Shown: positions 1,997 through 44,984 of the stretch, piece after piece | Layout of the letters: each line of letters opens with the position of its first letter | Position numbering within the stretch: the first letter of the stretch is position 1 | Assembly (NCBI GenBank): GCA_023666275.1 | Contig: JAMPCJ010000001.1 | Coordinates: 1 to 64,000, forward strand | DNA length: 64,000 nucleotides | Direction: 5' to 3' | Origin: Treponema brennaborense | GTDB taxonomy: Bacteria; Spirochaetota; Spirochaetia; Treponematales; Treponemataceae | The notes under the pieces: generated by a model | What the model was told of the DNA's origin: nothing | The model's input: only the letters and a program-made list of their open reading frames with translations | Database searches by the model: none | Made by a program: the position numbers and the translations under genes

Positions 1997-2872
1997 TCAG
2001 CGAACCGTCAACGAAAGAGAAGACGTTTCTTCGCTGCCGCTTATGTCGGTCAAAATTACAGTGATAATCGAATATCCGGAATTCAGCGTTACTTCCGCAA
2101 GGTACTGCATCCCGTTTTTATAGATGCGCTCGAACGGATGCAGCGCCGCTCCCGCAACCACTCGCTTTCCGCGGGCAACAGACAGCATATCATAAGAAAC
2201 GGTTTCGACTGCGGCGCCGTTTACCGCGACAGCCGTTTTTAACGGCATGTTTTCGGAAACGGCACGGCAAAGCGTATATGTCCCCGCCGGAATAATTTTA
2301 TGTTCCGCGGGATTGAGAACGGCATTTTTTTTATTTATCAGCCGCAGACCGCGCGCCGGTATTTTTTCGTAATGCACCGATTTCGGCATAAACACAAGCG
2401 GATTTACCGCCGCCTTGTTCTTTAAGTCGGAAATCTGGAATTCAAGCGCGCAATTCGGTTCGTGCCAGCCGGAAGCACCCGAAACGCCGATTTCGTCATG
2501 TCTTGCGGCCGGCGATCCGTCTTTCGCACAGGAAACCGCTTCCAAATTCGCATATACAGACAGCAGTCCGCCTTCATGCGCGATAATAACAGCGTTTCCC
2601 AGCGGAGAAGGAAACCAGCCCATATCATCGGCAGCATCTTTGAGGCAGGCAATAATCGTGCCGTCTTCCGCCGCACGGACAGGAGCGGAATCGGAAAAAA
2701 TCACGGAAGAAGACACCGTTCCTCCGCGCGGTTCGCCGAAAAAACCGCCGAAACTTTCGGAACTCTCGACACTCTGCGGCCAGTCGAATGCATGCACACA
2801 AACAGCTTGCGCAAACAGCAAAGCCGGCGCGAAAAATCCGAAAAAACTATATAATCCGCCGCGGTTTCTCAT
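1997..2872 (-). CDS. Secreted M23-like protein with degenerate active site
   Basis: This 291-residue protein has an N-terminal hydrophobic segment (about residues 8-28) that looks like a cleaved signal peptide, so it is probably periplasmic. Residues 55-160 follow the LytM/M23 layout: a 'PVRAAEDGTII' strand, 'GNAVIIAHEGGLLSVYANLEA', then a turn region. Active M23 peptidases read roughly 'YAHL' at the second position and have an H(x)nD upstream. Here YANL replaces YAHL, so zinc binding should fail. I infer a non-catalytic, peptidoglycan- or protein-binding role like that of EnvC/NlpD-type LytM proteins. The gene starts three bases after the stop of the upstream propeller-like gene, so the two are cotranscribed. 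Confidence 0.6.
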   Translation of the reverse strand: MRNRGGLYSFFGFFAPALLFAQAVCVHAFDWPQSVESSESFGGFFGEPRGGTVSSSVIFSDSAPVRAAEDGTIIACLKDAADDMGWFPSPLGNAVIIAHEGGLLSVYANLEAVSCAKDGSPAARHDEIGVSGASGWHEPNCALEFQISDLKNKAAVNPLVFMPKSVHYEKIPARGLRLINKKNAVLNPAEHKIIPAGTYTLCRAVSENMPLKTAVAVNGAAVETVSYDMLSVARGKRVVAGAALHPFERIYKNGMQYLAEVTLNSGYSIITVILTDISGSEETSSLSLTVR

Positions 2873-29095: not shown

Positions 29096-29261
29096 GCACA
29101 TTGCCTGCTGCGTTTCGGACAGCGCTTTTGCTTTTATGCAGTTCCATAGACGCGCGCTCCGCGCTGCCGATACGACAAGCGCGCCGCGGAATGCACAAAA
29201 CTCCGAAAATTACGCGCAATTCTGACGCACACTGCCCTGCCGCGTTTCGCGCAGCGGTTTT
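29096..29261. repeat. Imperfect direct repeat in the tyrA–aminopeptidase spacer
   Basis: A segment of about 35 bases at 29096-29129 recurs at 29227-29261 with several changes; both contain CGTTTCG flanked by CAG-rich arms. The second copy touches the tyrA stop. Function is unknown, possibly transcript-end hairpins. Confidence 0.35.
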
Positions 29262-30174
29262 ATGTATTTTTGGGTTTCTGCATGATAATCCGCCGCGCGC
29301 GAACCTGTTCCAGAATGTCCTGAAGCTCCGCAGCATTGCAGCTGCCGATGCACTTTTTTATCCTGCCGAGCGCATCCTCAAACGCACTGATGTGCGCGAG
29401 CAGTTCCGCGCGGTTTTCCAAAAATAATTCGGTCCACAGCGGCGCGTTTATCATGGCAATCCGCGTAAGATCTTCGAAACTGCCGCCGCCGAACGCCGTA
29501 ATATTCGTATCTTCTGCGCTTTGTACCAGCGCGGACGCAATCACGTGGCACAGCTGGGACGTAAAGGCGATTTTGTGATCATGAATATCGGCGGTCGTTT
29601 CTATGATGCGCGAAAAACCGAGCGCGGTTATCAGGCGTTTCAAAAGGCTCAGATTTTCCGGACGATTGCGCGGCTGCGGCATCAGGATATAATTGCGTCC
29701 GTCGAAAATATTCGCGGAAGAATGAATAAATCCTTCTTTTTCGCTGCCCGCCATAGGATGCCCCGGAATAAAATCCGCGCCGTCTTCGGGAAGCAGCCCG
29801 TTTTTCAGCGCGGAACACAATTCCGTTTTTACGCCCGCAATATCCGTAACGACTGCATTCTGCTTGAACGAAGCGCGGTGCGCGGAAATAAACGCAAGCG
29901 CCGCTTTCGGATACAGGCAGATATACACTATATCGCAGCGCGCAAGCATTTCATCCGCTTTTTCCAGCGGAAATCCCTCGTCTATCGTGTTGTCCTCGGC
30001 GGCAAGTTCCAGCGTCTGCGGGCGAATATCGCATGCGAGAATCCTGCCGGCGGCTGTTTTTTGTCCGAGGGAATCATCGGAAAGAATGCGCTCGCGGACA
30101 GCGCGTGCGAGAGAACCGCCCATAAGACCGAGCCCGACAAATCCGTAAACAAGCGATTGTAAATCAGCATCCAT
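29260..30174 (-). CDS. tyrA: Prephenate dehydrogenase
   Basis: The 304-residue enzyme oxidatively decarboxylates prephenate to 4-hydroxyphenylpyruvate in tyrosine synthesis. The NAD(P)-binding loop GxGxxG is in 'GFVGLGLMGG' (residues 11-20). The catalytic and substrate block 'PGHPMAGSEKEGF' lies at 137-149, and 'DIHDHKIAFTSQLCHVIASAL' follows. There is no chorismate mutase or ACT domain, so it is a single-function TyrA. It lies 79 bases after aroF on the same strand and is probably in the same attenuated operon. ATG 30174 begins the nucleotide-binding domain; the 24-codon extension upstream is not conserved in type. Confidence 0.92.
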   Translation of the reverse strand: MDADLQSLVYGFVGLGLMGGSLARAVRERILSDDSLGQKTAAGRILACDIRPQTLELAAEDNTIDEGFPLEKADEMLARCDIVYICLYPKAALAFISAHRASFKQNAVVTDIAGVKTELCSALKNGLLPEDGADFIPGHPMAGSEKEGFIHSSANIFDGRNYILMPQPRNRPENLSLLKRLITALGFSRIIETTADIHDHKIAFTSQLCHVIASALVQSAEDTNITAFGGGSFEDLTRIAMINAPLWTELFLENRAELLAHISAFEDALGRIKKCIGSCNAAELQDILEQVRARRIIMQKPKNT

Positions 30175-30253: not shown

Positions 30254-31279
30254 TTACATAATTTTATGTTCTATTTCCGCATACTGCCGCAGAGAATGCA
30301 TCAGTTCATCAAACTGCGTCGGCGTGATAGACTGCTCCCCGTCGCACAAAGCGGCTTCGGGATTATTGTGCACTTCCACAATGATGCCGTCGGCGCCGGC
30401 TGCAAGCGCGGCTTTTGCCATCGGCTCGACCATCCAGGCAAGACCGGTCGCGTGGCTCGGATCCACAATAACAGGCAGATGCGTTTCTTTTTTCAAAAAC
30501 GGAATCACGCCGAGGTCCAGCACGTTGCGGGTAAACGTATCAAAACTGCGGATGCCGCGTTCGCAAAGAATAACTTGTTCGTTTCCGCCTGCCATAATGT
30601 ATTCGGCAGACATCAGCAGTTCCTTGGCAGTGTTCGCAAGACCGCGTTTCAGCAGAATCGGCTTTCCGCAGCGGCCGAGTTCTTTCAGCAGCGTAAAATT
30701 CTGCATGTTGCGCGCGCCGATTTGAATAATATCCACATCGCCGAAAACTTCCAGCTGGTTTATTCCCATCAGCTCCGTAACAATCGGCAATCCGGTTGCC
30801 TTTTTCGCAAGCATCAGCAAGTCAATGCCTTCGCAGCCCATGCCCTGAAAACTGTACGGCGATGTTCTCGGCTTGAAAGCTCCGCCGCGAAGAAATTTCG
30901 CGCCGGACTTTTTGACCGCTTCCGCTATTTCCACAATTTGCTGTTCGCTTTCAACGGAACAGGGCCCCGCCATAACGCTGAAATTCGGTTCGCCGATAAT
31001 CACATCGTCTGCACCTGCACGCGGCACATGAATCAGCGTATTTTGCGGATGAAATGCCCTGTTCGCCATTTTATACGGCGACTGTACGCGCATAACTTGG
31101 TCGACAATTTGATACGCTTTCAGGCTTTGCTCGTTTATCTTTGTGGTATCGCCGATAAGTCCCAAAATGGTATGATCGACACCGGCGGAAATATGCACGC
31201 CGAGTCCTTTCTGCTTCAGCATTTCAATAAAATTCTGAATATCCGTTTCCTGCGTTTTCGGTTTCAAAACAATAATCAT
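30254..31279 (-). CDS. aroF: 3-deoxy-7-phosphoheptulonate synthase (DAHP synthase)
   Basis: The 341-residue enzyme condenses PEP with erythrose-4-phosphate, the entry step of the shikimate pathway. The first 65 residues are a ferredoxin-like (ACT-like) domain. In related type I-beta enzymes this domain mediates tyrosine and phenylalanine feedback. The catalytic barrel shows 'AGPCSVESEQQI', 'KPRTSPYSFQG', 'ILLKRGLANT', 'LCERGIRSF' and 'VDPSHATG'. ATG 31279 has GGGAG six bases upstream; a longer open frame runs through the leader hairpin and is rejected. The gene symbol follows common usage for this family. The 450-base upstream region holds regulatory structures listed separately. Confidence 0.92.
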   Translation of the reverse strand: MIIVLKPKTQETDIQNFIEMLKQKGLGVHISAGVDHTILGLIGDTTKINEQSLKAYQIVDQVMRVQSPYKMANRAFHPQNTLIHVPRAGADDVIIGEPNFSVMAGPCSVESEQQIVEIAEAVKKSGAKFLRGGAFKPRTSPYSFQGMGCEGIDLLMLAKKATGLPIVTELMGINQLEVFGDVDIIQIGARNMQNFTLLKELGRCGKPILLKRGLANTAKELLMSAEYIMAGGNEQVILCERGIRSFDTFTRNVLDLGVIPFLKKETHLPVIVDPSHATGLAWMVEPMAKAALAAGADGIIVEVHNNPEAALCDGEQSITPTQFDELMHSLRQYAEIEHKIM

Positions 31280-31285
31280 ACAAAA

Positions 31286-31398
31286 CTCCCGATAAAAAAA
31301 TCCTGCGCCGCTGACCGCACACGAATGCGCGGAAATCAAAGTCCGCAAATGCAACGCATGCAGACTTCCCGATAAAAATGCACGGTGCATTTTTATCG
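31286..31398 (-). promoter_or_regulatory. aroF proximal leader: perfect hairpin and duplicated ribosome-site segment
   Basis: CGATAAAAATGCAC (31370-31383) and GTGCATTTTTATCG (31385-31398) form a perfect 14-base inverted repeat. On the message, ATTTTTATCGGGAA (31379 to 31366) is echoed by ATTTTTTTATCGGGAG (31301 to 31286), which includes the aroF ribosome site. The upstream arm CGATAAAAAT could pair with either copy, so alternative structures that expose or cover the ribosome site are possible. Confidence 0.5.
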
Positions 31399-31456: not shown

Positions 31457-31486
31457 AAAAAAAGGGAACCCCTTTACGGAGTTCCC
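31457..31486 (-). terminator. Intrinsic terminator ahead of aroF (attenuator candidate)
   Basis: On the minus strand GGGAAC (31486 to 31481) pairs with GTTCCC within 31470 to 31464, and seven T follow (31463 to 31457). It lies between a strong promoter and aroF. CTCCGT in its 5' arm (31481 to 31476) could instead pair with GCGGAG (31543 to 31538) near the end of the upstream short reading frame. Confidence 0.75.
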
Positions 31487-31519
31487 TGTAAATACCGGTA
31501 TATACGCAAACCGATGAAA

Positions 31520-31639
31520 CTAATTCACGGCGCGCCGCTCCGCAAGACAAAAAGAATTCCCGCAGCTAAAGTAAAAGTATACCGCATTGATATCGCGAAC
31601 AGCATCGGAATAAATATTTGCCATGCAGAGTGTATTCAT
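31520..31639 (-). CDS. Putative Tyr/Phe-rich leader peptide of the aroF–tyrA operon
   Basis: A 39-codon reading frame runs from ATG 31639 (or ATG 31624, giving 34 codons) to TAG 31520. Its middle reads 'INAVYFYFSCGNSF', with the consecutive codons TAC TTT TAC TTT. It lies just after a consensus promoter and 34 bases before an intrinsic terminator that precedes aroF. In enteric attenuators such as pheL, stalling at codons for the end-product amino acid decides terminator formation. No good ribosome site is visible, and the first ATG is so near the expected transcription start that leaderless initiation would be needed. The role is inferred from position and codons, not from homology. Confidence 0.5.
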   Translation of the reverse strand: MNTLCMANIYSDAVRDINAVYFYFSCGNSFCLAERRAVN

Positions 31640-31646
31640 GTGCATT

Positions 31647-31675
31647 ACTATACAAAAAAACAACAGCACCGTCAA
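31647..31675 (-). promoter_or_regulatory. Consensus promoter of the aroF leader
   Basis: On the minus strand TTGACG (31675 to 31670) and TATAGT (31652 to 31647) are exactly 17 bases apart. Transcription should begin near 31640, just at the short leader reading frame. Confidence 0.7.
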
Positions 31676-31728: not shown

Positions 31729-33843
31729 TTATGTTTTGAACAGATTTATTTCATCGCCGATTTTATCGATCGACCGTCTGACCTGTTCGGAAGCATCGGA
31801 AAGCGCACTGCCTGTTTTATTGATTCTTTCGGCTTTCGCAGCCATTACATCCATATTTTGATTCATGGCATCGGTAGTATCTTTTAAGTTCCGCAGCTCA
31901 TCGTTAATCCGCTCATTATGCAAAGATATTTCTTTCGAAGACTTTTGTACTTCCATTGTACTGTCATTCATATTTTTCAGCGTGGCAATGATCTGCTGGG
32001 AGCCTTCGTGCTGTTCGGACATTGCCGCTTTTATTTGAATGACAAGCTGTTCCGTTTCCTTTATTTTGCCGGAAACAGCGGACAGCGCTTCCCCTGATTT
32101 TGTGGAAGCAGACACAACGTCCGAAATAGAATCAAGTATTTTGTTCAGCTGTTCGCCGATTGTTTTCGACTGCTGCGACGATGTTTCCGACAGCTTTCTG
32201 ATTTCGTCCGCAACAACGCTGAAGCCTTTTCCCGCTTCGCCGGCATGCGCCGCTTCGATTGCCGCGTTCATGGCAAGCAAATTAGTCTGTTCGGCAATGC
32301 TTGAAATAACGATATTCGCTTCCTGGAGCATTTCCGACTGATTTTCTATCTGCTTGATTCTGTCATTCACATCCTGCTGGCTTGAAAAACTCATCTGCGC
32401 ATTATTCAGAAGCGAATCAAACGAGGATGACAGTTTATCGACCGAAGTATTGACAGAAGCTATATTTCCGATCATTTCTTCGATAGCCGCCGAAGCTTCG
32501 GTAACACCGCTCGACTGGCTTTCTATCATTCGGCTGAGCGACGTGAAATTTTTCGAAATTATACCGACGGTGTCGCTCGTCTTATAAACAGTATCTATTT
32601 GCACCGAAATGCGCTCTCTCATGTTGGCGATGTTTTCGATAACGTCATTTATGCTGGTAGCGGTTTCTTTGGTGCTTTCCGTCATTTCATTGCCGGCGGA
32701 ACTCAGCAAATCCCGCGAATTTTTAAGCTCGCTGATTATGCTCTGTAATTTATCGCAAAACGCATCGAATTTGATAACCAAAAATCCGATTTCATCGCGT
32801 ATAAACAGCTTGCAGCGTTTTGTCAAATCAGCTTCGCCGGTTGCCATTTCATCAAGCTGGTTTGTTACGTTTTTGATTCGCCACATAAGCCAATTTATAA
32901 ACATGCCGCTGCTGACAATAAGAACCGCCGCAAGCAGCAGCGCAATCGGCATGACAATCCGCAGCGTATTTGCACGCACCGCATTCATGGAATGCAGGCT
33001 TTTCGCGATAAATATCATGCCGGTGATTTTTCCGTTGCCGGAAAGAATCGGGAAGTAATAACTGTAAAACCTTTTTCCGGCGATAGATACTTTGCCCATG
33101 TAACCGTTGCCGTCGCGCAGAACGACCTGTTCTACGGCACTGTTGTTCAATTTTGAGCCGACGAGCGTTTCGTTGTTCTCGGAAACCAGCGAAGTCGACA
33201 TCCGCACATCGTCTTTGAATATCGTGCATTCGACGTTGTAGTTGTTTGAAATGGATTTTACCATTGTACCGTCGGTCATGTCGTATCCCGCGACGATGCA
33301 GCCCACAACGCGCCCCGCAAAAAACACGGGATGCGCGGCAGCGATTGCATACTTGAAATTCGCAATTCCTTCTATTCCGCTGGAAGCGTTTCCGCGCAGC
33401 GCTTCCGCAACGGTACCGATGTATGACACATCAATTCCGCCGGTAACGCCTGCGCCGCCGCCGGTATACACCCGTCCCCGTGCATCGGTAATGAACAGAA
33501 AAGAGAGTCCGCCGAATTCTGCCGCGTTGCTGATAAAATTCTGCAGCTTCGCCGATGAAAGATTCGCGGCTTGCTTCAGCTCCTGCATTTCCGACAAAAT
33601 AGCGGCATATCCGGCTAAGTGCACCGAACGCTCATTGATATTCAGTTCAACGCCGTCGGCAGTATGACTTAAATCGTCTATTACGGTTTTGATTAAGCCG
33701 GAGTTAAATATTTGCAGCGACAGAAAACCGACGCCCAGACAGCTTATAATTATCGCGCCGGCGATTATAAGCCGCAATTTTGTCGCGATTTGCATATCCC
33801 GTTTAGGATTCGGATCAAAACGGTCTAATTCTTTTATTGCCAT
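31729..33843 (-). CDS. Methyl-accepting chemotaxis protein with a periplasmic Cache-type sensor
   Basis: The 704-residue receptor has a first membrane segment at about residues 25-47. A periplasmic double-Cache-like domain (about 50-310) includes '[18 protein letters not shown]' and '[24 protein letters not shown]'. A second membrane segment (about 315-338) is followed by HAMP and then a long coiled coil. The signalling tip is '[23 protein letters not shown]', followed by '[15 protein letters not shown]'. GAGGA sits seven bases before ATG 33843, so that is preferred to GTG 33849. It lies 24 bases after the DctP-like gene in one operon, so the binding protein may present the ligand to this receptor (inference). 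Confidence 0.9.
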
Positions 33844-44736: not shown

Positions 44737-44984
44737 TTTTCAACATCGCAGAAAACTTCGGTTTTCGAGAATGTTGAAAACCGTGATTTTACAGCGAAGC
44801 GAAAAATCACATTAAATAACGAGTTTTCGAAAGAAAACTCGAAGTTAAAAAATGCGGCACTGCTTCTGACGCATTTTTTAATGTCCGTAAAAAGTTTTGC
44901 AGATTGCTTTTTTTGCAATCGAATTTTTTTTTGCGAATTGCGGCAGCAACGCTGCTTTTCGAATTCGCAGATTAAAAACTTTTT
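44737..44984. repeat. Array of consecutive hairpins upstream of cstA
   Basis: Hairpin 1: TTTTCAACAT/ATGTTGAAAA (44737-44780) with inner GAAAAC/GTTTTC. Hairpin 2: GTGATTTT/AAAATCAC (44783-44810). Hairpin 3: CGAGTTTTC/GAAAACTCG (44820-44841). Hairpin 4: TTAAAAAATGCG/CGCATTTTTTAA (44845-44881). Nest 5: AAAAAGTTTT (44889-44898) with AAAACTTTTT near 44975-44984, enclosing GATTGC/GCAATC and GCGAATT/AATTCGC. No coding frame is plausible. This is the whole cstA 5' region. Confidence 0.75.

Follow-up and report, generated by a model that had tools for sequence, protein, structure and literature searches.

A conserved candidate Tyr/Phe attenuator, apparently leaderless, upstream of aroF–tyrA in Treponema and related spirochaetes

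Results

The aroF–tyrA locus and its leader

We analysed a 64,000-nucleotide stretch of the Treponema brennaborense genome (the window), in which aroF and tyrA follow a promoter, a short leader ORF and an intrinsic terminator, all on the minus strand (Table 1). An initial annotation had read this arrangement as a possible Tyr/Phe attenuator. It described a TTGACG-17-TATAGT promoter directly before a 39-codon frame with Tyr-Phe-Tyr-Phe codons and a later Phe, without naming the strand; promoter, frame and codons are all present, with the extra Phe codon at 31552 and the ATG 7 nt past the end of the -10 box. The terminator with seven T was also confirmed, at 32 nt from stop codon to stem where 34 bases had been given. 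The GCGGAG:CTCCGT pairing proposed between the frame and the terminator is real and extends to 8 bp (regions 2 and 3). Pfam assignments bear out the two downstream genes, which belong to the cognate pathway of the sensed amino acids, and aroF has its own Shine-Dalgarno-like sequence, GGGAG (31290-31286). Upstream on the same strand is a chemoreceptor (MCP) gene, whose end at 31729 lies about 240 nt ahead of the terminator.

Table 1. Coordinates of the features at the aroF–tyrA locus (window positions).
Feature	Position	Strand	Details
Sigma-70 type promoter TTGACG-17-TATAGT, near-consensus	31647..31675	-	-35 box 31675-31670, 17-nt spacer, -10 box 31652-31647
Leader peptide ORF, 39 codons, MNTLCMANIYSDAVRDINAVYFYFSCGNSFCLAERRAVN	31520..31639	-	ATG 31639, TAG 31520; no Shine-Dalgarno site
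Putative region 1, CTCTGCA	31624..31630	-	Potential protector hairpin with TGCGGAG of region 2
Sensor codons Tyr-Phe-Tyr-Phe (TAC TTT TAC TTT), codons 21-24	31568..31579	-	Aromatic run kept in relatives
Region 2, antiterminator 5' arm TTGCGGAG	31538..31545	-	Within leader ORF
Region 3, CTCCGTAA	31474..31481	-	Partner of region 2; inner part of terminator 5' arm and loop
Intrinsic terminator AGGGAACTCC-GTAAA-GGGGTTCCCT plus T run	31457..31487	-	Stem 31487-31463, 10 pairs, dG about -17 kcal/mol, T7
aroF, DAHP synthase type Ib with N-terminal ferredoxin-like regulatory domain	30254..31279	-	Pfam PF00793 + PF18152
tyrA, prephenate dehydrogenase, second gene of the operon	29260..30174	-	Pfam PF02153 + PF20463

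Between the terminator and aroF lies an inverted repeat, CGATAAAAATGCAC/GTGCATTTTTATCG (31370-31398), which was considered as a repeat element and rejected, as it is single copy in the genome. A search of the window against Rfam at gathering scores returned no family at the leader site; elsewhere, a TD-2 RNA (RF03162) lies above its gathering score at 44787-44886 (+).

To gauge how often such layouts arise by chance we used a loose detector, which asked for an ORF 12-65 codons long with four or more aromatic residues among six, and for a terminator 15-130 nt downstream with a stability of -9 kcal/mol or better. Applied to both strands of the window it found six places, roughly one per 21 kb of strand, among which the aroF leader has the strongest terminator. 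This density taken alone would favour a chance open frame beside a terminator that merely ends the MCP gene or a small RNA. The single-genome case is thus only suggestive, and the evidence rests on comparison.

Conservation of the aromatic run

Orthologues of aroF were located in relatives and their upstream DNA was read, giving 81 loci with at least 900 nt upstream. A leader with an aromatic run followed by a terminator precedes aroF in 65 of these 81, far more than chance would give: the reverse strand had 0/81 and dinucleotide shuffles 4/243. Tuning of the detector used the first 18 leaders, and the null runs kept its settings; because the compared sequences are related, Fisher-type p values would overstate the case. 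Six more loci have a leader by eye (L115, L116, L118, L119, L145 and L164). The conservation of aromatic codons and frame that the initial annotation had suggested checking therefore holds. Carriers span at least 11 genera of the family and one genus of a second family in the same order, and include two Treponema sp. records (L031 and L039). Some relatives have no leader (L005/L011, L015, L033/L034, L042, L114 and L162). The AroF tree groups 40 spirochaete sequences in a supported clade, 32 of them with the leader; four spirochaete sequences that fall outside it (L019, L020, L021 and L081) have none. In genus g2 (L005 and L011) aroF directly follows a tyrosyl-tRNA synthetase-like gene and has no aromatic leader; a search for a leader linked to this tyrS in the genus found none.

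The densest six-residue windows of 48 non-redundant leaders hold 166 Tyr, 60 Phe and 19 Trp (order Tyr > Phe > Trp), in runs such as VYFYYYWN, FFYYYYEF, VYFYYYYDF, VYFYFYYWN, FYYYYWN, YLYYYYL, VYFYYYYWFY and YYYYYYF. Outside the run the peptides are conserved neither in sequence nor in length, which ranges from 22 to about 46 codons. Such variation suits a sensor better than a functional protein. It also counts against a leader that makes a functional small peptide, or a terminated RNA that acts in trans, with attenuation secondary. The Sinorhizobium meliloti leader peptide peTrpL is reported to have trans roles (PMC7298713); for the spirochaete leaders we regard such a function as very unlikely to be the principal one.

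The aromatic run is the only strongly conserved sequence feature of the leader region, and it is coding. Tyr T-boxes control aromatic genes in Firmicutes, and a T-box or another tRNA- or metabolite-binding riboswitch might in principle govern the terminator here, with the ORF incidental. Yet neither a T-box nor any other Rfam family was found at the leader site in the window, six aroF loci searched at a relaxed threshold gave no significant leader match and no T-box, and what is conserved is a run of codons; we judge a riboswitch extremely improbable.

A predicted leaderless start

When promoters were searched for blindly across about 200 nt in each of the 48 non-redundant leaders, 41 had the -10 box 6-10 nt (mostly 6 or 7 nt) upstream of the first in-frame start. 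A GGAG-type Shine-Dalgarno site before an ATG was found in none of these 48 spirochaete leaders. For context, among 36 long ORFs of the window a Shine-Dalgarno-like site precedes the candidate start in 21, and a promoter lies that close in three. Given the close -10 box and the missing Shine-Dalgarno site, the 5' end of the transcript is predicted to lie at the AUG or no more than a few nucleotides away. The leader thus appears to be translated from a leaderless mRNA that starts at, or 1 nt before, the AUG.

An antiterminator that covaries with the terminator

For each leader we took the most stable uninterrupted helix between the part of the ORF that follows the run and the terminator 5' arm plus loop, with between-species pairings and shuffles as controls. 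In the first 18 leaders matched helices averaged -15.1 kcal/mol versus -11.3 kcal/mol for mismatched ones (permutation p = 1e-5); across the 48 non-redundant leaders the values were -14.5 kcal/mol versus -10.3 kcal/mol for cross-species pairings (p = 2e-5, the floor of the permutation), and the helix is individually significant (p < 0.05) in 34 of the 48. This covariation across species lends support to the antiterminator role that had been proposed for the pairing. An RNAduplex comparison of the ORF with a poorly bounded terminator arm had given no signal (permutation p = 0.13), because the arm boundaries took in upstream hairpins; the signal is clear once the arm is defined as the outermost hairpin adjoining the T run. 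In 44/48 leaders the antiterminator arm falls within the ORF. Over the 48 leaders, the median distance is 14 nt from the last aromatic codon to the start of the arm, and 14.5 nt from the end of the arm to that of the stop codon. This position provides the geometry needed: the arm would be free when a ribosome stalls in the run and covered when the ribosome is at the stop.

Folding was modelled for just the RNA that lies ahead of the ribosome, at the stage when the terminator 3' arm has yet to be made. Over the 48 leaders the mean modelled probability of the antiterminator was 0.86 with a ribosome stalled mid-run versus 0.40 with no ribosome, and exceeded 0.5 on stalling in 45; without a ribosome it still exceeded 0.5 in 19. 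With the ribosome at the stop codon it is zero by construction: region 2 is by then either under the ribosome or upstream of it. In the window the value is 0.95 when stalled, under the usual assumption that RNA on the two sides of the ribosome is separate, and 0.00 without a ribosome, because region 1 sequesters region 2. Masking the footprint while allowing pairs to span the ribosome, a treatment we rejected, gave 0.04 here. If the ribosome is placed on the run's first codon, the model for this genome prefers a shifted pairing with the same terminator arm. Across relatives the 1:2 protector helix has weak support overall (permutation p = 0.0065) and is clear in a subset; where it is strong, its 5' arm often lies 7-10 nt after the AUG.

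At the level of sequence, conservation is thus established for the aromatic run in its frame, the terminator, the antiterminator covariation and the promoter-to-AUG spacing. A chance frame beside the MCP terminator, extremely unlikely as it now is, is already refuted as the main account by this conservation, as far as the compared loci can tell: in relatives with differing upstream sequence the terminator stays beside aroF, the aromatic run keeps its frame and a segment of the ORF covaries with the terminator.

Related leaders in other lineages and before other genes

Outside the spirochaetes, aroF relatives (mostly Clostridia) have an aromatic leader with a terminator at 33 of 70 loci, against 0 on the reverse strand and 1 in shuffled sequence (L035, L043, L046, L050, L059, L060, L065, L067 and 25 others). 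A Shine-Dalgarno site and a 5' UTR tens of nucleotides long are present in most of these leaders, and the group is apparently undescribed. This genome is not alone in having the device, which occurs in 11 genera or more of the family, in a second family of the order and before clostridial aroF relatives.

Leaders with runs of 3-5 His codons and a terminator precede hisG at 11 of 24 loci in relatives (for example MKRITMNHHHHHGYSSRGA; L207, L209, L215, L217, L218, L222, L223, L224, L227, L228 and L229) and are probable His attenuators, judging by their layout. Leu-run (LLLL) leaders with a terminator precede leuA-like genes at 4 of 27 loci (L274, L275, L277 and L281); in L274, L277 and L281 a -10 box lies 6-7 nt before the ATG. 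Locus L217 also holds a sub-threshold match to the fluoride riboswitch at 2446-2561 (+) (29.3 of 34 bits, E 0.0003).

In the relatives searched, neither the tyrosyl- and tryptophanyl-tRNA synthetase genes nor the paralogue in which DAHP synthase is fused to prephenate dehydratase showed a Tyr leader upstream, and no Trp-run leader was seen before trpE. In this genome that second DAHP synthase, with its prephenate dehydratase domain, forms one frame of about 660 codons (L111, L177; G000:C16:125550-127196); no aromatic leader was found upstream of it.

We lean towards the view that apparently leaderless leader-peptide attenuation is a standing form of amino acid operon control in this spirochaete order (Tyr/Phe for aroF, His for hisG, Leu for leuA-like genes), and that the aroF leader is ancestral to the aroF clade of the order, the clostridial relatives having a Shine-Dalgarno-led version.

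Discussion

We consider it very probable that the leader is a ribosome-mediated transcription attenuator of aroF–tyrA that senses the charging of Tyr- and Phe-tRNA. The transcription start, the translation of the leader, the stalling and the response to amino acids are what we infer in the following model. RNA polymerase would start at or adjacent to the leader AUG, and a ribosome would load on the leaderless 5' end and trail the polymerase. With Tyr and Phe plentiful the ribosome would reach the stop codon and cover region 2, the terminator (3:4) would form and a transcript of about 180 nt would result. With Tyr or Phe short the ribosome would stall in YFYF; region 2, left free, would pair with region 3 (the 2:3 antiterminator) and transcription would continue into aroF–tyrA. 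With no ribosome, region 1 would pair with region 2 (1:2) and termination would follow. In many relatives the charging of tRNA-Trp would be sensed too.

The data indicate a conserved switch that would turn the aroF pathway on when Tyr or Phe runs short. It would give the phylum a conserved, testable RNA switch for a whole pathway. Leader-peptide attenuation is best known for Trp, His, Phe, Leu/Ile/Val and Thr, and the present leader would add a Tyr-dominated sensor to this repertoire. It would also couple attenuation to leaderless initiation, in which a ribosome should load very soon after transcription starts. Clostridia, where this enzyme family has a leader with a normal ribosome binding site, offer a natural comparison. 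According to a 2023 Borrelia study, the only riboswitch characterised in the spirochaete phylum is a TPP riboswitch (PMC10319736).

Comparison with known attenuators

The leader has the hallmarks of leader-peptide attenuators: cognate codons clustered in a short ORF, an intrinsic terminator before the first structural gene, and a covarying antiterminator that competes with this terminator. A 2010 statement held that amino acid leader peptides were unknown outside Proteobacteria and Actinobacteria except for a Firmicute case that the same paper reported (PMC2965389). The remark in the initial annotation that no treponeme case was known agrees with the literature we searched, of which coverage was incomplete and which yielded no description of such a leader in Treponema or other spirochaetes.

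The arrangement had been likened to enteric pheL, and as regards attenuator architecture the likeness stands. Enteric pheL (pheA) and trpL likewise comprise a short ORF with cognate codons, the cognate biosynthetic operon downstream and a mutually exclusive antiterminator and intrinsic terminator. However, enteric pheL is Phe-only and has a Shine-Dalgarno site, whereas the spirochaete leader is Tyr-dominated and apparently leaderless, and its antiterminator arm lies in the ORF. The Rfam family Phe_leader (RF01859) has no match in the window at the gathering score; the six aroF loci gave a single match to it, below that score (L013, 32.2 of 55 bits, E 0.14).

A further known system is uORFC-13-1, an upstream ORF of Acholeplasma with Phe codon(s) that is likewise followed by an intrinsic terminator and precedes aroF (PMC8632094). 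It differs in having an RBS and Phe only, with no Tyr run reported, and is confined to Acholeplasma and unassigned environmental sequences (PMC8632094); judged on the RBS, the spirochaete leaders fall outside it, with a GGAG-type site in 0/48. The predicted attenuator before the DAHP synthase gene aroF of Corynebacterium glutamicum likewise has a Phe/Tyr leader, but this is a single case from an actinobacterium with a short run, Phe-Tyr-Phe (PMC4046766). Attenuator leader peptides whose transcript begins at the start codon have their counterpart in trpL1 and leuL of Streptomyces lividans; these leaderless leader peptides of Actinobacteria differ in phylum and amino acids, and several are without a clear intrinsic terminator (PMC8079986). 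The mechanism is thus a known one, classical attenuation, and each of its features has a precedent; the combination is lineage-specific.
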